DNA from: Maribacter polysaccharolyticus
GTDB taxonomy: Bacteria; Bacteroidota; Bacteroidia; Flavobacteriales; Flavobacteriaceae
NCBI RefSeq assembly: GCF_028882255.1
Contig: NZ_JARBUY010000001.1
Span: 1-64,000, forward strand
Direction of reading: 5' to 3'
DNA length: 64,000 bases
The position numbers and the translations under genes were made by a program. Each line of letters begins with the position of its first letter. Within the stretch, counting starts at the first letter, position 1. This document shows positions 54,766 through 63,904 of this stretch, piece by piece. The notes beneath the pieces were generated by a model that was not told the origin of the DNA, searched no databases, and was given only the letters and a program-made list of their open reading frames with translations.

Positions 54766-55473
54766 TTATAATATTCCTGCAAAAATGGAAACATAATACA
54801 CCCCCGTAATAATAAAAACGACTCCGGCGCCGCTTCTCATGATTTTTTCAATTTTAGTGATCCGGTTATAGAATACACCTACTTTACCTGCTGTAAAGGC
54901 CAATAGGTAAGTAAAAAGAATTACAGGTAACCCAGTTCCGAATGCGAATATTATCGGTAAATACAATCCGTCTGCAGAGGCTATTGTCATTGGGATGAGC
55001 ATGCCGAAAAACAGTGCACCACTATAAGGGCAAAATGCCAAGGCAAAGACGACCCCGATCAAAAAAGACCCCAATAGGCCTTTATCCTGGAATTTTTCGG
55101 ATAGTTTTTCTTGAAAATTCGTCTTTCCCAAAAAGTTAAGTTTTATGATATTCAGCATAATCAACCCTATGATGATCAATAATGGACCTAAATACTTTTC
55201 CCCATTCTGATTAAAGAACCGGGCAATATGAAACTTGCTGGCCCCAAAATACAGGATCAAACCGATTACGGTATAACTAAATCCCCTTCCTAAGGAATAA
55301 AGCAATCCACTTAAAAACACTTTCCGTTGGCTGGAAATGTTTTTCGAGATAAAGGCAGTCGCAGTTATATTGGTCGCCAAAGGACATGGACTGATGGCTG
55401 TCATTAGTCCTAGTATAAATGCCGATAAAATGGGGAAATTATAATTTTCCAATAGCGATTTCAGGAAATCCAT
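54766..55473 (-). CDS. ArsG-like permease (CcdA/DsbD-type membrane protein)
   Basis: The protein has 235 residues with six or more transmembrane helices. Two conserved cysteines lie in SPCPLATN (Cys30) and FCPYSGALFF (Cys148), the membrane thiol pair seen in DsbD/CcdA relatives. In Bacteroides, ArsG is described as the permease that exports reduced aromatic arsenicals together with ArsE and ArsF. That name is given here by similarity of order and motifs. It is the last gene of the operon, directly abutting the ArsF-like gene. Transport of electrons instead of arsenic is an alternative. Confidence 0.7.
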   Translation of the reverse strand: MDFLKSLLENYNFPILSAFILGLMTAISPCPLATNITATAFISKNISSQRKVFLSGLLYSLGRGFSYTVIGLILYFGASKFHIARFFNQNGEKYLGPLLIIIGLIMLNIIKLNFLGKTNFQEKLSEKFQDKGLLGSFLIGVVFALAFCPYSGALFFGMLIPMTIASADGLYLPIIFAFGTGLPVILFTYLLAFTAGKVGVFYNRITKIEKIMRSGAGVVFIITGVYYVSIFAGIL

Positions 55474-55911
55474 CTAGAGGGTCTTTAATTCGGTGTTGAT
55501 CTTGGCTTTCAATTCCTTGGAGAAAGCTTCTTGGTCCAATCCGTTCATAAAGGCAAAATCGGTTAGGTCTATTTTGGTTTCCTTACCGTTTTTAATCACA
55601 TTCAAGAATAGGGAAGTACCAGATGCCTCGAATTTTTCAGCAATCTTTTCGTTTTCTTCCTTGTCTACATTGATGACCTGAAAAGTGATTTTATTTTCTT
55701 TCAATTCCTTTGAAAAATAGGTGTCCAAGGTATATCGTGTGTTTTTTTCAATGGCATTGCACGTCATACATCTATGGGTAGCATGAAAATCAAATACCTC
55801 GATTTTGGAGATGGAAGCTTCCAATGGAGTGTCTTTGCTTTTTTTCTGGCCGTTACAAGCTGTAAGTACTAGACCAATGGTTAATACGGTGAATAATTTG
55901 ATAGTTTTCAT
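55474..55911 (-). CDS. ArsF-like thioredoxin-fold lipoprotein
   Basis: The protein has 145 residues with a lipoprotein signal (lipobox LTAC, Cys19) and a thioredoxin-like domain with a CMTC pair (48-51) in FHATHRCMTCNAIEKNTRY. Proteins of this kind are annotated as ArsF, a partner in reducing nitro-aromatic arsenicals. It is anchored in the periplasm and follows the FmdE gene by 17 bp, so it may pass electrons between the neighbouring membrane proteins. Confidence 0.7.
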   Translation of the reverse strand: MKTIKLFTVLTIGLVLTACNGQKKSKDTPLEASISKIEVFDFHATHRCMTCNAIEKNTRYTLDTYFSKELKENKITFQVINVDKEENEKIAEKFEASGTSLFLNVIKNGKETKIDLTDFAFMNGLDQEAFSKELKAKINTELKTL

Positions 55912-55928
55912 TTTGTTGGATTATTTAA

Positions 55929-56609
55929 TTATTGACAATAGGATTTATTCTTATTTAAAATATCTGTTTTGGGGTAATCGTTTTTTTTCAAGGGTTTCCA
56001 CTTAAAATCGACTATTTCGGTAACTATGAAGTTCTCTTTGGGATCGGTGGTAAGTAATCGCCCAGAAAAATCGGCTTCCAAGTTTTTGAGCGTATCCAAA
56101 TCACAGGGCGATAATGCTCCTTTAATGGCTTTTGCCCCGAGTTCGTCGATTACGGAAGGTTTAACCCCTTTTTTCATTTGAACTTTAACAGCCTTTTGGG
56201 TGTCTTTCCGTTGTAGGACATAAAATCCGTCTTCGATGGTATCATCCACATAAAAAGAGTTATACTGGTACCTGCCACCCGTAATATAGATAGCCACATC
56301 GGTTAGGCAAGGAGAACTATTACTGACAATTCGGGTATTCGTTCTGTCGATGGTTCCCGTGGGATAAAGTATTTTCAATCCTTCCTGAATCCCTAAAAAT
56401 CCTTGAATGAGGCCATCGCATAAATGCCCGTGGAATCGTTCTAGATCTTCCAAGTTTATTTGGTGTTCCAAGGTCAATCTTCCTTTTGAAAAATCGGTAT
56501 CCAAAACAGTAACCCCCGTATGTTGCCCTACCATGTCGACAGGGGAGTTTTGGGCCATAGAGAGGTGAATTGCGAAAAATATGATCAATGGAAACCGTAA
56601 ATATTTCAT
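55929..56609 (-). CDS. Exported FmdE-domain protein
   Basis: The protein has 226 residues with a signal peptide (cleavage near Ala19) and an FmdE-like domain: the family motif FHGHLCDG (59-66) and a second conserved Cys in SSPCLTDV (101), with GGRYQYN (111-117). FmdE was named from methanogen formylmethanofuran dehydrogenase operons, but such isolated domains in bacteria have no proven function; metal or thiol binding fits the conserved His and Cys. Its start overlaps the permease end by 4 bp, so it is coupled to metalloid transport. A second, cytoplasmic FmdE protein is at 59833. Confidence 0.75.
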   Translation of the reverse strand: MKYLRFPLIIFFAIHLSMAQNSPVDMVGQHTGVTVLDTDFSKGRLTLEHQINLEDLERFHGHLCDGLIQGFLGIQEGLKILYPTGTIDRTNTRIVSNSSPCLTDVAIYITGGRYQYNSFYVDDTIEDGFYVLQRKDTQKAVKVQMKKGVKPSVIDELGAKAIKGALSPCDLDTLKNLEADFSGRLLTTDPKENFIVTEIVDFKWKPLKKNDYPKTDILNKNKSYCQ

Positions 56610-57586
56610 AGTACTATTTTGAATAAAGATCCCGAAATGATGATAAACAAGGTCACAACGCTAAAAAATATGGCGATCAATTTTAAGGACATTACTTTTT
56701 TGAGCAAAGTGGCTTCGGGAATGGATAGCCCTACCGTGGCCATCATAAAAGCAATGGCCGTACCCAAAGGCATCCCTTTGGCAACAAAAACCTCTATGAC
56801 AGGAACTATACCAGCTGCATTGGCATACATGGGAACGGCAACCAATACCGCAAGCGGAACGGTCCACCACTCACCACCTCCTAAATAGGTGTTGAAAAAG
56901 TTTTCCGGAACATAGCCGTGCATAGCACCGCCAATGGCAATCCCGATAATAACGTAAAGGAGAACCCCTTTTACGATATCCCAAGCTCCCCGGGTTATTT
57001 CCGGCATTCGTTGGTAGAAGGTTTGTTTTTCCACTACATATTCGTCCTGATCCATTTTGGCTTCAAGGATCCTTTTTACCCAATCGGAAAGTAAAGGTTC
57101 GAGATTGAATTTTCCCAACAGCCAACCTCCGATGGTACCCAATAATATTCCTGAAACGGCATAAATCAGGGTAACCTTTATGCCGAACATACCCAAAAAC
57201 ATGGCCACGGCCACCTCATTGACCAAAGGTGAAGTGATCAAGAAAGCGAACGTTACCCCTAAAGGGATCCCGCCTTGAACAAACCCAATGAACAACGGGA
57301 CCGAAGAGCAGGAACAAAAGGGGGTTATAGCCCCGAAAATGGAAGAAAAAAAGTATTCCAGTCCGTAGAGCTTTTTTTCGTTCAGATAGGTTTTAAGTCG
57401 TTCAATCGGGAAATAGGCATTTACGATTCCCATTATAAAAACGATAACGAATAAAAGAATCAGAATTTTTATGGTATCGTATACAAAGAAATTAAGGGCC
57501 GTTCCCAAATGGGTGTCCGCTCCGATTTTAAAAACGGAATAAATAAGCCAATCTGAAAAATGCTGTAACCAATCAAACATAGGCAA
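56606..57586 (-). CDS. DUF318/ArsP-type permease
   Basis: The protein has 326 residues with about eight transmembrane helices in two halves. The family motif CSCS (Cys91 and Cys93) is in TPFCSCSSVPLFIGF, followed by ITSPLVNEVAVAM. Members such as ArsP export trivalent organoarsenicals, and the Cys pair binds the metalloid. A central charged loop lies at about 170-205. It overlaps the OsmC gene by 14 bp and the FmdE gene by 4 bp. Confidence 0.82.
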   Translation of the reverse strand: MPMFDWLQHFSDWLIYSVFKIGADTHLGTALNFFVYDTIKILILLFVIVFIMGIVNAYFPIERLKTYLNEKKLYGLEYFFSSIFGAITPFCSCSSVPLFIGFVQGGIPLGVTFAFLITSPLVNEVAVAMFLGMFGIKVTLIYAVSGILLGTIGGWLLGKFNLEPLLSDWVKRILEAKMDQDEYVVEKQTFYQRMPEITRGAWDIVKGVLLYVIIGIAIGGAMHGYVPENFFNTYLGGGEWWTVPLAVLVAVPMYANAAGIVPVIEVFVAKGMPLGTAIAFMMATVGLSIPEATLLKKVMSLKLIAIFFSVVTLFIIISGSLFKIVL

Positions 57587-57980
57587 TGGTGTTGATCGTA
57601 CCGGAAATGGCGCAGGACATTTTTACGGTATTGTAGATAGTTCCGTATTTTTCAATATTCTTTTTAAGCAAATCCGTATTCAGTTTTTCATCGTTACTGT
57701 AAAGGGTCAACTTGTAAACGAGGTTATCCATTCTAGGCGGGTGTTCAAGACGGGTTGCATTGACCTCTAGGGTTGCCTTTGTGTACGTGAATTTCATCAT
57801 ACTTGAAAAGCGTTCAACATTTTTCAATATACAGGCAGCAAAGGAACCTAAGAACAATTCAGCGGGATTTGGGAGGGTCTCGGTCGTTTCCTGAGTGGTA
57901 CCAAAATCTATGATGGACTGCTTTAGGTGGATCACCGCATCCTGGTTTGCTCGGGAAGAAGCTTTGATATGATAATCCAT
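57573..57980 (-). CDS. OsmC-family protein
   Basis: The protein has 135 residues with the two conserved thiols, Cys50 (GSFAACILKN) and Cys123 (VKMSCAISGTI), that reduce organic hydroperoxides in OsmC and Ohr. In thiol-stress operons OsmC members may also handle sulfur compounds. It lies 12 bp after the mini-thioredoxin and overlaps the permease. Confidence 0.85.
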   Translation of the reverse strand: MDYHIKASSRANQDAVIHLKQSIIDFGTTQETTETLPNPAELFLGSFAACILKNVERFSSMMKFTYTKATLEVNATRLEHPPRMDNLVYKLTLYSNDEKLNTDLLKKNIEKYGTIYNTVKMSCAISGTINTIAYV

Positions 57981-57992
57981 AGGATACGCGAA

Positions 57993-58229
57993 TTACTTTA
58001 AAAGCTCCAAGACTTCGTCTTTCGATGGTACCCTGCCTTTTATGGTTATCGCACCGTCTATGACCAAGGCAGGGGTGGTCATTACGTTGAACTTCATAAT
58101 TTCCATGATATCCTCAACTTTTTCAATACTGGCATCAATATGGTTTTCAGAAACCACATCCTTAACTACACCTGTCATGGATTGACATTTGGGACATCCC
58201 GTACCTAAAATTTTGATTACTTTACTCAT
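57993..58229 (-). CDS. Small thioredoxin/glutaredoxin-like protein (ArsE-like position)
   Basis: From the ATG at 58229 the protein has 78 residues with CPKC (12-15) in LGTGCPKCQSM and the cis-proline in TTPALVIDG; the longer frame to 58286 would overlap arsR and is rejected. It belongs to the small redox-active disulfide proteins often found beside DUF318 permeases. It may correspond to ArsE, inferred from position only. It is cytoplasmic. Confidence 0.82.
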   Translation of the reverse strand: MSKVIKILGTGCPKCQSMTGVVKDVVSENHIDASIEKVEDIMEIMKFNVMTTPALVIDGAITIKGRVPSKDEVLELLK

Positions 58230-58278
58230 GCTATTTAATTTGTATATCGGCAATAAGCGATATTGTTTATAAAAAAAT

Positions 58279-58584
58279 TCATTCAAAAAACTGTTGGAAT
58301 AACGATTTTGCCTTCTTCCAGTTCTCTTGATCGATACAATACTTTATTTTGGGCGGTTTCAATTCTCCTTTTATGAGTCCGGCATTCTTCAATTCCTTAA
58401 GGTGTTGGGAAACCGTAGATTGTGCCAAAGGAAAAACATCCACCAAATCCCCGGTAAAACAACAGGATTGATTTTCAAGATGTCTTAAAATCGCAATTCG
58501 GGTAGGATGCCCCAAGGCTTTGGCAATTTTTGCCAAGGCTTCGGTATCTTCCTGATATTCGATATGTTCCAGGGTTCTTTTCAT
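58279..58584 (-). CDS. arsR: ArsR-family metalloid or redox-sensing repressor
   Basis: The protein has 101 residues. The winged helix is clear ([38 protein letters not shown]). A vicinal Cys41-Cys42 in [10 protein letters not shown] is placed to bind As(III) or to react with oxidants. It heads the operon of mini-thioredoxin, OsmC, permease, FmdE, ArsF and ArsG proteins and very likely represses it. Confidence 0.9.
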
Positions 58585-58594
58585 AATCTTATCG

Positions 58595-58602
58595 CAAATA
58601 TA
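58595..58602 (-). promoter_or_regulatory. Promoter of the arsR operon with AT-rich operator candidate
   Basis: On the minus strand TATATTTG lies 10 bases before the arsR ATG, an exact TAnnTTTG box and a very short leader. The adjacent AT-rich stretch (58603-58620) contains ATTAATATTTAAT, symmetric enough to be the ArsR operator. Confidence 0.62.
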
Positions 58603-58624
58603 CGATTAATATTTAATATGAAGA

Positions 58625-59050
58625 TTATTCTACACCTTGTTTATTTAGAACTTTCATTAATTCATCATAAGGGAAAAAACCTTCATGACGGAAAAACTCA
58701 TGACCATTTCCATCCAAAAATATTTGGGTTGGAATAGCCCTGATATTATACGTTTCGGCATAAGGTTTTCCTTCCTCGGTCCAAACATCATAGAAAATAG
58801 TCTGTACTTGGTCTCCATACTTTTTTTCTACGGATTTTATGACCTTTTGCATTTTTCGACAAGGAATGCATTTTACAGACCCTAATGCTATAAAAGTCAC
58901 TTTAGTCAGGTTTGTTTTCAAATGCCTTGTTTTATTAACGCCTGATTTGTCGGCATTATTGTTAATAGTTGCAAGTTCCTTTTTTGATGTTGCATTATCC
59001 TTACAAGAGCATAATACCACAGTCAAAAGTAGTATATATAAGTATTTCAT
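58625..59050 (-). CDS. Thioredoxin-family lipoprotein
   Basis: The protein has 141 residues with a lipoprotein signal (lipobox around LCSC, Cys16) and a thioredoxin domain with CIPC (61-64) in GSVKCIPCRKMQK and cis-proline in AIPTQIF. It is periplasmic and would supply electrons to exported proteins. It lies 32 bp after the TSUP gene, in the set that precedes the arsR promoter. Confidence 0.84.
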   Translation of the reverse strand: MKYLYILLLTVVLCSCKDNATSKKELATINNNADKSGVNKTRHLKTNLTKVTFIALGSVKCIPCRKMQKVIKSVEKKYGDQVQTIFYDVWTEEGKPYAETYNIRAIPTQIFLDGNGHEFFRHEGFFPYDELMKVLNKQGVE

Positions 59051-59082
59051 TTTTAATGGATATAATTAATATTGAACAGTTT

Positions 59083-59820
59083 TTAAAACAATTTAAGTCC
59101 CATTTTAACAGCCATTATCAGTAGGATAATCGCTAATATCTTTTTGACCATTTTCGGATTCAACCGATTTTGCATGATAATGGTCCCCAGCGTAGCCCCA
59201 GCGAGACCGGCTAAGGAGGTGATGACCAATAATTCCCAATCTACAGCACCTATTGACCAATACGTCAGAAAACCGGATAAGGAAGAAAAAGGAACAACAA
59301 AAGCGGTTATGGCCGTAATTTTTTTTGGATTGAATCCCATCATCAAGAGAAGGGGAGAAATAATCCCACCACCACCGATCCCCAGCAAACCCGATAATAG
59401 ACCGGCACCGGCCCCAATGAATGAAAGTGGTGAATAGGGGACGTCTTCTCGATATTCTGTTTCGTTTTTCTTTTTAAAAAACAAAAACATTAAACCGGAG
59501 AACAACAAAAACAGTACGAACAGCATCAAGACAATTCGTGAGGCGATGTATTTTGACAAATAAGCCCCGACAATCGCGAAAAGAAACGAAAAGATGATTA
59601 GTGGAATCCCCAATTTAAAATCGAGGCGTTTGTTTTCAATATTGTTAATACTTGCTCCGGTAAGACTAATGGTGTTATAAAATAAGCCGACAGGTTTCGC
59701 CACGGAAATGGGAATCCCGAAGGCATACATGATAGGAATCAATATAATTGCTGCCCCTATACCTCCTAAAGAGAAAATAAGGGCAGCAAAAAATGAAATA
59801 GCAGCTAAATAATATTCCAT
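59083..59820 (-). CDS. TSUP (TauE/SafE) family permease
   Basis: The protein has 245 residues in about eight transmembrane segments. Repeated motifs GGIGAAIILIPIMY near 19 and GLLGIGGGGIISPLLL near 145 are typical of TSUP. It may export sulfite or another sulfur anion. It starts 12 bp after the FmdE gene, so the two form a unit with the thioredoxin lipoprotein. Confidence 0.87.
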   Translation of the reverse strand: MEYYLAAISFFAALIFSLGGIGAAIILIPIMYAFGIPISVAKPVGLFYNTISLTGASINNIENKRLDFKLGIPLIIFSFLFAIVGAYLSKYIASRIVLMLFVLFLLFSGLMFLFFKKKNETEYREDVPYSPLSFIGAGAGLLSGLLGIGGGGIISPLLLMMGFNPKKITAITAFVVPFSSLSGFLTYWSIGAVDWELLVITSLAGLAGATLGTIIMQNRLNPKMVKKILAIILLIMAVKMGLKLF

Positions 59821-59832
59821 GATCGCTACGGT

Positions 59833-60435
59833 TTATTTTTCTGAGCAAGGAATACATACTCTTTTTCCATCAATGACCTTTGAACGGTTGTCGAACACAA
59901 CCTCCTTACATACCGCGCAATGATGCCATTCGAAAGTTCCCTTTGGTAATTCCACATCTTTTTCGAAAATATCACTTATCGAAAACAGTATGTTCTCGTC
60001 CATTTTCTTGGCATTTTCAATAAGTGGCATTACCACTTGGGGTTTAATGTCCTTGGGTTCAACCTTTTGTTTTCGGAGTTGGACGAATTCGGAGTTCAAT
60101 GCTTTTTCGAAAAATGCCGGTTGCATTGAAACCCTCACCGCATTCTTCGTTTTTAAATCGACCAGGACGATGGCGTTTTTCCCGTAATTGAGTTTTTCTG
60201 CATTTCCCTTACCATAGGTACAACCCGTCGCTGCCATGACCCCGTCCAAAAAGCAGGCGGCGGCATGGGCGGGTCCGTTTTCACAGAACAGATACAACTC
60301 TTTGTTAAGGGATTTCTCAACCCCGAGTTTGTTCATTGCGGTCAACCCTGCACGGTAACCAATTGGCATTGCCGGACATTTATGTCCGTGAAATTCAAAT
60401 GCCCATTCCGGAATTTCAATTTTTTGGGTATTCAT
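59833..60435 (-). CDS. Cytoplasmic FmdE-domain protein with C-terminal zinc ribbon
   Basis: The protein has 200 residues without a signal. FmdE motifs are FHGHKCP (15-21), the Cys in HAAACFLDG (61) and GCTYGKGNAEKL (71-82). At the C-terminus is a four-cysteine zinc ribbon, HHCAVCKEVV and RVCIPCSEK (Cys173, 176, 194, 197). This matches FmdE-family proteins in bacteria whose role is not known; methanofuran chemistry is not expected here. It is transcribed with the TSUP permease and thioredoxin, opposite in location to the exported FmdE at 55929. Confidence 0.82.
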   Translation of the reverse strand: MNTQKIEIPEWAFEFHGHKCPAMPIGYRAGLTAMNKLGVEKSLNKELYLFCENGPAHAAACFLDGVMAATGCTYGKGNAEKLNYGKNAIVLVDLKTKNAVRVSMQPAFFEKALNSEFVQLRKQKVEPKDIKPQVVMPLIENAKKMDENILFSISDIFEKDVELPKGTFEWHHCAVCKEVVFDNRSKVIDGKRVCIPCSEK

Positions 60436-60841
60436 ACTTTATGTTTTAAAAAATTATTGTTTTATTCCATGATTTTTTTTTCGATCACTTTAAGGGGATA
60501 ATCCAAGCGCTATATCATTTTTGATCCAATGAAATCGCTTGGATCCCGAATTCCTTATTTCAAACGGTCATGAAGAGGCGATTACAAAGGACGGATGCAT
60601 TTATTAATCCTCCGTTGAATAGGTTTGGGTGTTTCAAATAACCAAATCCGATATGTATTATCGCTCTATTGAGTAACTTGATAGACTTAAATGGCATATG
60701 CTTTATTTTCCGTTTTAATTTGCTTTTCACCCCTCTTTTCCACAAAAACAATGCTTTAAGGGGTCAGGATGTTCATTTGTCGAATTCACCGATCTATACG
60801 GTAAGTAGTAGTGCAAAATTTCCATATATTATATGGGGTTT
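60436..60841. other. Intergenic region between the RND permease and FmdE genes
   Basis: These 406 bases hold a stem-loop candidate at 60501-60544 and a 63-codon minus-strand frame (60560-60751) without known motifs; I do not call the frame a gene. The region probably separates the RND transcript from the FmdE-TSUP-thioredoxin transcript. No exact TAnnTTTG box is seen before 60435. Confidence 0.45.
60501..60544. promoter_or_regulatory. Inverted repeat upstream of the FmdE-TSUP unit
   Basis: ATCCAAGCG (60501-60509) pairs exactly with CGCTTGGAT (60536-60544). With a small bulge the flanking GGGAT/CCC extends the stem. It lies 66-109 bases before the FmdE start and has no T-run, so an operator or 5' leader structure is as likely as a terminator. 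Confidence 0.45.
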
Positions 60842-63800
60842 CTATTTTTTATCTACCGCATAGGTATAAATTGGTACATAGATTAAGGTCAATAAAGTCC
60901 CTATCAATAAACCTCCAATGGCAACATCTGCCAACGGACTTAATCGTTCCAAACCTACGGCTTGTTCAAGGGCGATAGGGATCATACCCGCTATAGTTCC
61001 GAAAGCCGTCATTAAAACAGGACGGAAACGTACACGTACACTTTCAATGGCACTTTCAAATGGGCTTTCACCACTGGAACGGTGGTGTTGGTAAAAATCT
61101 ATCAGTAATACTGCATTTTTAATGATGATACCGAACAACAACAGAATACCCAATAAACTGGGCATACAACTTGGCTTATTGAACAATAACATGCCCCAAG
61201 CTGCCCCAATCAATGACAAAGGCAATACCAATATCATGATGAAACCCATTTTAACCGATTTATAGATGGCGATCAGCACCATTAATAAAAGGATAATACC
61301 AAGGGCAATCGCTTTTATCATACGTGAAAAACTGTCGTTGATGGTGGCGATATCCCCTTCTTGGCTAACAACGACATCTTTTAGGTTGTTAACGTTGGCT
61401 AAGGCTGAATTGGCATCATCCGTTAAATGCGTTATCGGGCGTTTGGAACGGTACCCGTTAACATCGACACTGTACAACATTTTATCGCGCTCAATTTTGG
61501 CATAGGTCAGTTTTTTTGAGATTTTGGCCAACCATTCAAGTGGGATTTCCCCAAATTTCGATTGTACCGGCAATAGCCGTAAGGTTTGTTCGTTTTCGCT
61601 GAATTTACCTTTTAGATACAACCTGACATATTGGGAGTTCATGGATTGTAAATTGGCATTTAAACCAACTACTTGGCCTTTTACAGGTATCTGTGCCGCA
61701 ATATCATAGGGGGTAAGACCATAACTCAAGGCTTTGTTTTCATCAATGTCAAGTACAATTTCACTGACATCCTTATTCCAACTTGTAGACACGGAGGTCA
61801 ACCCTTTAACGGTTGACATGGCTTCACTTACCTGATGGGTTTTTTCTGCCAAACCATCAACTACTGGCGATTTTAACCGAACATCCAAAGGTGCTTTTAC
61901 AGATGACAAGGCAGTTGCCCCAAAATCATAAACATCGTTACGTTTGAGTCCCTTTAATTCCGATAATTTGTCACGAATTACATCTTCGAGTTCCCACATG
62001 GTCGATGATCTATGAAAACGGTCAACGCAATTGATGGTAATGGTGGCTTCTGAAGGTAAATTACCACTTCCCAAACTTAAGACCCCTGGTTGTGTTCCAA
62101 AAGCTACCGAGCTTTTATCTGCCCAATCCTGTTCGTGTAACCAAGTTAGAAAAGGCATGACTTTTCTTTCGGCACTTTCAACGGTTTCATTGGCACTAAA
62201 TGCAATTTGTGCTTTTATGATTCCGGTATCCATAGGTGGCATTGCATCTTTACCAATGGTTGGCATTATGCTGCCCATACTCAATACCAATAGCAGTACC
62301 ACTCCAGCGGTTAAGACCACCCTTCGTAATACTTTTTGTTTCCCATTGGAAAACTTGATTACCTGGACATAAGGTGCAACCAAACGGCCAATGGTATTGT
62401 TATAAGCTTTATCAAACCACAATTCTACTTTTGTTTTTGTAAAACCGTTTTTGTACATCACTTTTAACAATTGTGGAATAAAGGTGATGGAAATGAAAAA
62501 CGATATGATCAAGGCCACGATTAACGTAAAAATCAAGGGTTTGAATATTTTTTCCGGAAAACCCCCAATGAACATCAACGGAAAAATGATGGCAATGGTA
62601 GAAATGGTTCCTGCAAGTACAGGGGCAATAACCTCTTTAGTGCCATTTAGAATAGCAGTTTCAAGATCCTCTTTTAGTTCATTTAGGTGACGTTCTACAT
62701 TTTCAAGTACCACGACGGCATCATCGGTGAGCATACCCAACGCTAAAATAATGGCGGTATAGATTACTATGTTCAATTCACCACCCGTTAACCAAATAAC
62801 CGCCATAGTGGCGAAAAATACCATGGGTATGGACAAGGCGGCCGCAATAATGGCCCTAAAATTCCCTAGGAAAAAAAGCACCACGATCAAGGTGAAGATT
62901 ATGGCATCGCGAAGTGCCTCCAACATGTTCGAATTAGCTGTCTCGATAAGATTTCTTTGGGTATCTGAAATCTCAAATTTGATATTTGGATATTCAGCTT
63001 CCAATTTTTCCATTTCTGCCCGGGCAGCCTTACTCACATCCAATACGCTGCCCCCGGGAGCGCGCTGAACAGCCAATGCAATCGCAGGTTTGGCATTGCC
63101 GATATAGCCACTCGTTCTTTTTTGATAACTCCAACTAACATTTGAAACATCCCTTAATCGGACATTGGGCAAAATTGTAATGTTCTTTATTTTTTCAATT
63201 TCATTTTTTTCACCGTAAAAAGTAATGGTATAGAAACTATCGTTCCCTTTTACAAAACCAATGGGCATATCCTTGTTGATTACCTTTAAGGCATTGGATA
63301 TGGTTTCAAAATTCACGTTATATCGTTTGGCTTTGAACGGATCGATTTCGATGTTTATCGAATTCTGAAATCCACCGAAAACTTCAACATTTCCGATTGA
63401 AGGGTTACTCAATAGATAGGGCTTGATAAAATTATCCGCGATTTTGCTGATATCGGCAACATCGAGGGTATTGTTTTTTGGACTCAATGAAATCACATCG
63501 ACAGGTAAGGTGAAATCCCCTGCCGTATAAACTGCGGGATTCACGTTAGTGGGTAGTTTACCTTTCGCAATGGATAACGCATTGGCTACATCAACAGCTG
63601 CAGCATTTAGACCTTTTTTATATCCGAAATCGGCTTTTACAATAGAAAAGTTCGCGACATTGACAGAACTGACATCGGTGACCAAACCCAATCTTGAAAT
63701 TTCCTGTTCAATGGGTTTTGAAACCGTATTGGCCGCTACTTGTGCCGTGGCCCCGGGAACATTCGTAATAACGATTACTTGTGGTGGATTGGCATCGGGA

Positions 63801-63904
63801 AATAGGTTTTTAGGCAGCGTGATCAAGGCAACGATACCCATAATGAAGAAACCAGCTATAAGGGCATATAGGGTATAAGGCCGTTTATAAAAATATTCGA
63901 ACAT
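60842..63904 (-). CDS. RND-family efflux permease
   Basis: The protein has 1020 residues with the RND plan: TM1 (about 10-30), periplasmic loop, TM2-6, second loop and TM8-12. The proton-relay aspartates are in GMLTDDAVVVLENVERH near 395, and the FGTIAGMIPIALEQAVGLE segment is near the end. It resembles HAE-1/MdtB-type transporters. The export substrate is unknown; drugs, metals or metalloids are all possible. The adaptor gene lies immediately upstream, cut by the window edge. Confidence 0.92.
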   Translation of the reverse strand: MFEYFYKRPYTLYALIAGFFIMGIVALITLPKNLFPDANPPQVIVITNVPGATAQVAANTVSKPIEQEISRLGLVTDVSSVNVANFSIVKADFGYKKGLNAAAVDVANALSIAKGKLPTNVNPAVYTAGDFTLPVDVISLSPKNNTLDVADISKIADNFIKPYLLSNPSIGNVEVFGGFQNSINIEIDPFKAKRYNVNFETISNALKVINKDMPIGFVKGNDSFYTITFYGEKNEIEKIKNITILPNVRLRDVSNVSWSYQKRTSGYIGNAKPAIALAVQRAPGGSVLDVSKAARAEMEKLEAEYPNIKFEISDTQRNLIETANSNMLEALRDAIIFTLIVVLFFLGNFRAIIAAALSIPMVFFATMAVIWLTGGELNIVIYTAIILALGMLTDDAVVVLENVERHLNELKEDLETAILNGTKEVIAPVLAGTISTIAIIFPLMFIGGFPEKIFKPLIFTLIVALIISFFISITFIPQLLKVMYKNGFTKTKVELWFDKAYNNTIGRLVAPYVQVIKFSNGKQKVLRRVVLTAGVVLLLVLSMGSIMPTIGKDAMPPMDTGIIKAQIAFSANETVESAERKVMPFLTWLHEQDWADKSSVAFGTQPGVLSLGSGNLPSEATITINCVDRFHRSSTMWELEDVIRDKLSELKGLKRNDVYDFGATALSSVKAPLDVRLKSPVVDGLAEKTHQVSEAMSTVKGLTSVSTSWNKDVSEIVLDIDENKALSYGLTPYDIAAQIPVKGQVVGLNANLQSMNSQYVRLYLKGKFSENEQTLRLLPVQSKFGEIPLEWLAKISKKLTYAKIERDKMLYSVDVNGYRSKRPITHLTDDANSALANVNNLKDVVVSQEGDIATINDSFSRMIKAIALGIILLLMVLIAIYKSVKMGFIMILVLPLSLIGAAWGMLLFNKPSCMPSLLGILLLFGIIIKNAVLLIDFYQHHRSSGESPFESAIESVRVRFRPVLMTAFGTIAGMIPIALEQAVGLERLSPLADVAIGGLLIGTLLTLIYVPIYTYAVDKK

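Follow-up and report, generated by a model that had tools for sequence, protein, structure and literature searches.

What does an exported protein of the FmdE family do in the middle of an arsenic resistance operon? The question is raised by the first 64,000 nucleotides of contig NZ_JARBUY010000001.1 of Maribacter polysaccharolyticus (the window), in which seven adjoining minus-strand genes encode the repressor ArsR, the mini-thioredoxin ArsE, an OsmC-family protein, the permease ArsP, an exported FmdE-domain protein (FmdEx), the lipoprotein ArsF and the membrane protein ArsG (Table 1). The arsenic link of this module is well supported. In the reading that we prefer, and to which we give about an even chance, the run is part of an ArsR-controlled arsenic resistance regulon, most likely directed at trivalent (organo)arsenicals, in which FmdEx would bind the substrate in the periplasm, an RND pump would export it and a thiol relay would accompany these steps. 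New here are the conserved exported FmdE in an ArsP/ArsEFG arsenic module and, in this genome, an RND pump preceded by that same operator.

An initial annotation, made from the nucleotide sequence without database searches, had described the cluster. Its coordinates hold for all seven open reading frames (ORFs), neighbours overlap or are separated by short gaps, family scans agree with the names given, and the vicinal cysteine pair of ArsR is present (C41-C42). The matches to NF033788 and to the ArsE, ArsF, ArsG and ArsP models support the proposed ArsR control of an organoarsenical-type gene set. What had been called a mini-thioredoxin is of the thioredoxin type and more exactly ArsE; because TIGR00412 identifies it as such, the ArsEFG set is complete, and all three members score above their curated cut-offs. 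ArsG also matches PF13386 (DsbD_2) with 77.6 bits against a cut-off of 24.9. The starts of arsE and arsP were set at ATG by eye, and the signal-peptide-like N-terminus of FmdEx and the lipobox of ArsF were likewise recognized by eye. The extent of the operon had been drawn too narrowly, since the RND pump, a second FmdE gene (FmdEc) and the operator had been missed. The whole genome (4.76 Mb) contains two PF02663 matches, both inside the window run, and the neighbours scanned at 54766-63904 include no catalytic fmd/fwd genes.

FmdE genes are rare in the order to which Maribacter belongs: 395 genomes yielded 12 genes in 11 genomes and six genera, and relatives of FmdEx are patchily distributed (7/395 genomes). 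The same sample, with at most five ArsP_1 candidates scored per genome, contained 43 ArsP_1 matches spread over 29 genomes; one match scored under the cut-off. Eight of the 12 FmdE genes, namely seven of the exported type and the second FmdE of the window, have an arsP gene within 5 kb, and they represent four of the six genera. Random placement would achieve this for about 0.5% of genes, assuming a genome of 3.3 Mb with 1.6 ArsP genes; the association is not a product of chance. All seven FmdE-linked ArsP proteins are among the 15 best-scoring ArsP_1 matches (>212 bits), and none of the other 28 has an FmdE gene nearby.

The linkage spans several Bacteroidota families. A scan of named genomes gave 110 relatives, 80 of which were kept, with close relatives all counted; by title these are Bacteroidota, apart from one bin titled 'Kofleriaceae', which is possibly misbinned. 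Seventy-nine loci were usable (L102, which has no HGHxCDG ORF, was dropped), 41 of them with 4.5 kb or more of flanking sequence on each side (full-flank loci) and 38 with shorter flanks; L083, L096 and L102 were left out of alignment A2. Genes were named after their best BLAST match (E 1e-5) to the window proteins or a few representatives. ArsP and ArsE were found in all 41 full-flank loci, ArsR in 40, ArsG in 25 and ArsF in 24, followed by rhodanese (18), DinB (15), OsmC (13), which is an optional member, and ACR3 (9). FmdEx precedes ArsG in 22 loci and follows it in 26, and on the tree the gene order must have changed at least three times.

The exported FmdE had initially been seen as an unexplained oddity. 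That view falls, since the protein recurs across Bacteroidota and has a homologue encoded in an ars operon on a plasmid from Bacillota. Its proposed partnership with the permease gained support from the presence of ArsP in every full-flank locus, and the outcome named beforehand as speaking against it, FmdE being scattered at random relative to these permeases, did not occur. The observation that inorganic arsenic genes are missing is correct for the run itself; elsewhere in the genome, on a different contig, lies a run of arsM, arsC-like and acr3 genes, and in related genomes at least one of the ACR3, ArsC-like, ArsM and DUF6428 clusters is found near the module in 14 of the 41 full-flank loci. 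One representative per cluster was scored, giving 448 bits for ACR3 (cut-off 283), 334 for ArsM (263) and 110 for DUF6428 (28.7).

To which proteins FmdEx is related became visible at the level of the fold. Its AlphaFold2 model (pLDDT 89.4) matched the solved FmdE proteins 2glz (Z 12.0), 2gvi (11.4) and 3d00 (11.4) at root-mean-square deviations of 3.3-4.2, with the next best match at Z 5.1; a sequence search of the PDB with FmdEx had returned nothing useful. The metal ligands in the N-terminal domains of 2glz and 2gvi are two histidines and two cysteines, according to the part of PMC2954224 used here. Their counterparts in FmdEx are H60, H62, C64 and C101. All four are invariant in alignment A1, which comprises the window protein and seven relatives from a whole-protein search, and C101, which is absent from the scan motif, is kept in 68/68 sequences of the larger set (11 fusions excluded). 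Two distant exported relatives (L020, L021) keep the metal site only partly, and no ArsP was seen in the 20 kb viewed around them. The intact His2Cys2 site fits the periplasmic metalloid- or thiol-binding role suggested in the initial annotation, a role that FmdEx may fill in one of three ways: it would bind the arsenical, block its re-entry or act on it.

If FmdEx acted on its substrate, it could be a periplasmic zinc enzyme for arsenical-thiol adducts or organoarsenicals within the same arsenic regulon, partnered, where fused, by an acetolactate-decarboxylase-like domain. We consider this unlikely, while noting what speaks for it. Pfam scans found the domain (PF03306) N-terminally fused to exported FmdE at L013:9520-10830 and L019:7717-9015, and 17 of the 79 FmdEx ORFs exceed 320 amino acids, 11 of which have their best BLAST match to this domain. 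Five histidines of the domain are kept in 15/15 sequences, and three of them are presumably spaced like the zinc site of acetolactate decarboxylase; similarity to 6j3d and 4bt2 is weak. An unknown ligand at the site cysteine of the Thermoplasma protein Q9HJ63_THEAC is described in the same part of PMC2954224. The fusion, however, is lacking in the window and in 62/79 loci, and the metal site has four protein ligands. We also know of no catalytic residue set for the FmdE family. ArsG was found in 1/13 fused and 24/28 unfused full-flank loci, with fusion judged by length (Fisher p 2.6e-6). Replacement of ArsF-ArsG by the fusion is not claimed; on the FmdEx tree the pattern amounts to one to three independent pairs (sign test, p 1).

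The cysteines of ArsR are well kept among relatives (C42 and C83 in 66/69, C41 in 55/69), as are the CxxC motifs of ArsE (66/67) and ArsF (47/47), C30 and C148 of ArsG (43/43) and the CSC motif of ArsP (68/68). We read the cysteines of ArsG, ArsF and ArsE as a probable DsbD-type thiol relay, contrary to the NCBIfam name of ArsG. The full-length DsbD model NF001419 gave ArsG 23.7 bits against a cut-off of 330, and a sequence search of the PDB with ArsG and ArsF found no useful match.

The regulon is outlined by a palindrome. Related loci share a conserved dyad 5' of arsR or arsE, ATCGTAnnTTTGCGAT or TTCGTAnnTTTRCGAA, placed over a TAnnTTTG box that we take to be the Bacteroidota-type -7 box. 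The 80 loci (1.04 Mb) contain 66 matches, with one palindromic site counted on both strands, compared with 0 for the reversed pattern and 0.2 for mononucleotide shuffles; the operator is present in 35/41 full-flank loci and in 52/79 loci overall. The outer pair is matched in 64/66 (33 A..T, 31 T..A), and the palindrome is therefore consistent with a dimer site, to which ArsR would bind. Since the pattern was drawn from the loci themselves, a search of the Maribacter genome is the fairer test. It returned three exact sites, where about 0.6 were expected and the reversed control gave 0. One lies at arsR, one 18 bases before the tolC ATG of an operon encoding TolC, a membrane fusion protein (MFP) and the RND permease (C11 66285-66300), and one at a decayed second module on contig C17 (L103:7802-9471), which retains the operator, an arsE-like remnant without cysteines, and intact arsP and arsF genes. 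In eight loci (L030, L032, L043, L046, L047, L048, L050 and L051) a further dyad, TGTGACnnnnGTCACA, lies exactly 17 bases 5' of the operator; motifs of this type or close variants number 12 in total on the plus strand of all loci. The tolC promoter carries the variant TGTAACTTAAGTTACG at the same 17-base spacing (C11 about 66318-66333). The position of the dyad would suit an activator of the Crp/FNR type. A sigma-70 scan of the region remained at chance level, with 23 found and 20.5 expected.

The RND permease gene belongs to the same-strand run in the window, about 400 bases away from the second FmdE gene, and the MFP and TolC genes follow past the window end (C11 63910-66266). A 90% identical pump is encoded in genome G1028, taken to be Yeosuana marina, just outside locus L027, between an acr3 operon and the FmdE module within one same-strand island. 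This island starts with a group of ars genes that includes ACR3, followed by arsR with the operator, TolC (64%), MFP (75%) and RND (90%), and continues with a thioredoxin-like gene, a second RND set, arsR with the operator, arsE, rhodanese, arsP, CDF, OsmC, FmdE, arsF and arsG. In L096 a 74% identical RND gene lies between arsP and FmdE. Between that RND gene and FmdE, L096:8615-8971 encodes a 118-amino-acid protein that looks DsrE-like by eye. The pump was rejected as a general member of the module: of the four loci with RND or MFP neighbours (L027, L087, L094 and L096) only L096 holds a close relative, and the RND proteins of L027 and L094 are 22-26% identical to the window pump.

Table 1. 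Genes and predicted operator of the module and its neighbours; positions refer to the window.
Feature	Position	Strand	Evidence
arsR, ArsR/SmtB repressor, C41-C42 and C83	58279..58584	-	NF033788 66.8 bits (cut-off 55), PF01022
arsE, mini-thioredoxin, CPKC	57993..58229	-	TIGR00412 'MTH895/ArsE family' 114.1 bits (cut-off 62; scanned as 57993-58217)
OsmC-family protein	57573..57980	-	PF02566 39.7 bits (cut-off 27.5)
arsP, DUF318/ArsP_1 permease, CSC motif	56606..57580	-	PF03773 228.9 bits (cut-off 32.3)
Exported FmdE-domain protein (FmdEx), 4-nt overlap with arsP	55929..56609	-	PF02663 60.3 bits (cut-off 22.9)
arsF, thioredoxin-type lipoprotein, CMTC	55474..55911	-	NF040494 115.2 bits (cut-off 60)
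arsG, DsbD/CcdA-type membrane protein, one Cys in each of two CP motifs	54766..55473	-	NF040495 309.6 bits (cut-off 200)
Predicted ArsR operator ATCGTATATTTGCGAT, overlapping the TAnnTTTG box, just 5' of arsR	58591..58606	-	conserved dyad
Thioredoxin-like lipoprotein, 5' of arsR, same strand	58625..59050	-	PF13098 49.2 bits
TauE/SafE-family exporter	59083..59820	-	PF01925 160 bits
Second FmdE (FmdEc), no visible signal peptide, C-terminal zinc finger	59833..60435	-	PF02663 104 bits, PF01258 26 bits
RND permease of the TolC-MFP-RND operon	60842..63904	-	PF00873 555.9 bits

The genes 5' of arsR have relatives of their own. A thioredoxin-like gene adjoins arsR in Maribacter aquimaris (L023) as well. 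The second FmdE is a relative of 2gvi (E 8.7e-41) and matches 30 plasmid records, five contexts of which were inspected. TauE adjoins FmdE on Kosakonia, Halorubrum and Sulfuricella plasmids, followed in Halorubrum by CDF and ZIP; the Sulfuricella context comprises RND, thioredoxin, CcdA, OsmC, TauE and FmdE, and a Citrobacter plasmid island combines FmdE, ACR3, ArsC, ArsA, permease, thioredoxin, rhodanese, CDF and TauE. In the Deinococcus context no such neighbours (TauE, ars, thioredoxin and the like) were found. The recurrence on plasmids suggests that FmdE and TauE at 59083-60435 of the window form a separate FmdE-TauE unit.

Arsenic is the best-supported substrate class of the module, because ACR3, ArsC, ArsM, ArsA or ArsD genes adjoin the module or FmdE in three phyla. 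A search of 72,556 plasmid records with FmdEx matched two, from Alicyclobacillus and Sulfuricella. The Alicyclobacillus plasmid has the order arsD-arsA-arsA-hypothetical-FmdE-arsR-arsenic transporter-arsC-arsC-trxB, and its FmdE, 35% identical to FmdEx and without a visible signal peptide, keeps the four-ligand site. A Prevotella plasmid carries ArsFG-thioredoxin-permease-ArsC-ACR3 without FmdE. Among arsenicals, trivalent organoarsenicals would be the favoured substrates, because published reports on ArsP and ArsEFG concern organoarsenicals and because the cysteine pattern of ArsR differs from that of acr3-linked ArsR. In one related locus (L094:3201-9627) arsM lies inside an ArsR-ArsE-rhodanese-ArsP-ArsF-ArsG-FmdE run, an arrangement that fits methylarsenite as a substrate. 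Flavihumibacter stibioxidans (L082, L089) has two FmdE-ArsP modules in one genome; the species name hints at antimony, which the system may serve too.

The gene names themselves could mislead. If the arsenic names were merely inherited from annotation, the regulon might answer reactive sulfur or thiol stress (persulfide, sulfite, electrophiles), an explanation that we regard as improbable. It would account for the rhodanese, DinB (a Pfam MST match) and OsmC genes of the full-flank loci, DinB belonging to what we take to be the bacillithiol-transferase superfamily, for the TauE and thioredoxin genes 5' of arsR in the window, and for the thioredoxin-CcdA-OsmC-TauE-FmdE context on the Sulfuricella plasmid, where no ars gene is listed within the 8.6 kb viewed. 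It is contradicted by the linkage to ACR3, ArsC, ArsM, ArsA or ArsD in Bacteroidota, Bacillota and Pseudomonadota, and by the three cysteines kept in ArsR, which resembles acr3-linked ArsR.

Divalent metal export is a still less probable explanation. Here ArsP_1 would act like the SO_0444-type Cu/Zn exporters and FmdEx would be a periplasmic zinc or copper carrier. According to the part of PMC2954224 cited here, Zn or Zn/Ni is bound in the solved FmdE structures, and metal-ion transporters are encoded close to most FmdE genes; CDF genes recur in the loci (9/79), and FmdE-TauE-CDF-ZIP is found in Halorubrum. The permease, however, falls far below two curated cut-offs, with 89.5 bits against a cut-off of 300 for the SO_0444 Cu/Zn exporter model (NF033936) and 123 against 325 for the SaoE model (NF040736), and the confinement of FmdE to the 15 best ArsP_1 matches, with 0/28 others having FmdE nearby, is at odds with it as well. 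That FmdEx is a mere passenger of a horizontally transferred ars island, as its patchy spread and the high identity of its neighbours to other genomes could indicate (ArsP 88.5% in L105, 92.9% in L023), is very improbable, given a linkage that outlasts at least three gene-order changes, the 4-nt gene overlap in the window, the domain fusion in up to 17/79 loci and the ars operon in a second phylum.

Several observations weigh against the preferred arsenic regulon or narrow it. Eight of the 15 close ArsP genes of the order sample have no FmdE, which makes FmdE an accessory partner of this type of ArsP, not an obligatory one; in one such locus (L105) acr3-type genes are followed by arsR-arsE-osmC-arsP-arsF-arsG, whose products share 70-90% identity with their window counterparts. 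No ArsG gene was found in 16/41 full-flank loci, so the proposed thiol relay is not always present, and NCBIfam names ArsG an efflux permease, not a reductase. The larger arsC-like cluster scored 46.4 of 215, below the arsenate-reductase cut-off, and the smaller one 123 of 174. The recurring CDF cation exporters belong here too, as does the Sulfuricella homologue of FmdEx, which keeps the metal site and adjoins ATP synthase genes, with a rhodanese nearby and no ars genes. Across the 79 loci, the conservation of H60, H62 and C64 is in part built in, since the scan motif and the required HGHxCDG ORF contain them. Outside the modules the operator is near background: 18 other genomes gave 16 matches (15 distinct sites, 12 of them inside a module), compared with 10 for the reversed control. 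Finally, the pump is rare. An RND probe found RND genes in 3/79 loci, close relatives of the window pump are confined to L096 and Yeosuana, the window-type TolC was found in 2/388 genomes of the family including the Maribacter genome itself (at most four candidates scored per genome), and the CusA/CzcA-type model TIGR00914 gave the permease 280.8 bits against a cut-off of 701.45. Because of this rarity we regard the pump as linked to the arsenic regulon here and not as a general part of the module.

How does the module compare with known systems? Chen, Zhang and Rosen reportedly described in 2019 that arsEFG of Shewanella putrefaciens gives resistance to roxarsone and nitarsone. ArsE, ArsF and ArsG are all present here above curated cut-offs, whereas FmdE and OsmC in the run, the RND operon with the same operator and the Bacteroidota host are different; in addition, the invariant DsbD/CcdA-like cysteine pair of ArsG would be as compatible with an electron conduit as with a permease. 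ArsP of Campylobacter jejuni is a trivalent organoarsenical exporter, according to the parts of PMC4435449 and PMC12607644 cited here. The window protein shares with it PF03773, the universal C(S/T)C motif and, in relatives, adjoining ars genes, and carries 'tPF' ahead of that motif, like the cluster 2 proteins of PMC4435449. It differs in having FmdE alongside, as do seven of the 15 close ArsP genes of the order; the word FmdE does not occur in PMC4435449. With 2glz, 2gvi and 3d00, FmdEx shares the fold and with two of them the four N-terminal metal ligands, but it is exported, has no zinc finger and is tied to an arsenic module. That most PF02663 genes adjoin metal-ion transporters was already noted in the section of PMC2954224 on this subject, in which arsenic is not mentioned. 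The SAO/Tso selenoprotein systems, with the permease SaoE and the thioredoxin SaoT, are similar in permease superfamily, thioredoxin-type partners and proposed organometal setting; the window permease is well below the SaoE cut-off, as given above, and no FmdE appears in the part of PMC13188914 cited here. A search of open-licence literature found no paper tying FmdE to arsenic, the sole co-mention naming fmdE for the methane cycle. In Cus-type export a periplasmic metallochaperone bridges the step from an exporter in the inner membrane to a tripartite pump of the RND type. We propose the same working principle for the Maribacter module, which is not a member of that group, its RND protein not being of the CusA/CzcA type by score.

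Built on gene content, conserved linkage, conserved residues and the palindrome with its three sites, the preferred mechanism would proceed as follows. ArsR would sit on the palindrome over the promoter and be released once an arsenical binds its cysteines. ArsP would then carry the arsenical from the cytoplasm to the periplasm, where FmdEx with its His2Cys2 site would bind it and either shield it or pass it on, and the co-regulated TolC-MFP-RND pump would move it over the outer membrane. Electrons may run from ArsE in the cytoplasm through ArsG, with its CcdA-like cysteine pair in the membrane, to ArsF in the periplasm, a relay that would keep periplasmic cysteines reduced. A wider claim can be made only tentatively: FmdE-type proteins may be an unrecognised class of periplasmic arsenical carriers, kept reduced by the relay and acting between ArsP and an ArsR-controlled RND pump in export across the whole envelope.

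In most accounts, arsenic resistance of bacteria consists of export across the inner membrane. The regulon described here suggests a periplasmic step, offers a candidate protein for it and points to a connection with an RND pump, by which export would be completed. The invariant cysteine pair of ArsG makes one ask whether the annotation of this protein as a permease is right or whether it serves as a thiol conduit, and the palindrome allows the regulon to be searched for in other Bacteroidota. Exported FmdE proteins, whose domain is named after methanogenesis and has been reported mostly near transporters, would thereby gain a first testable function.

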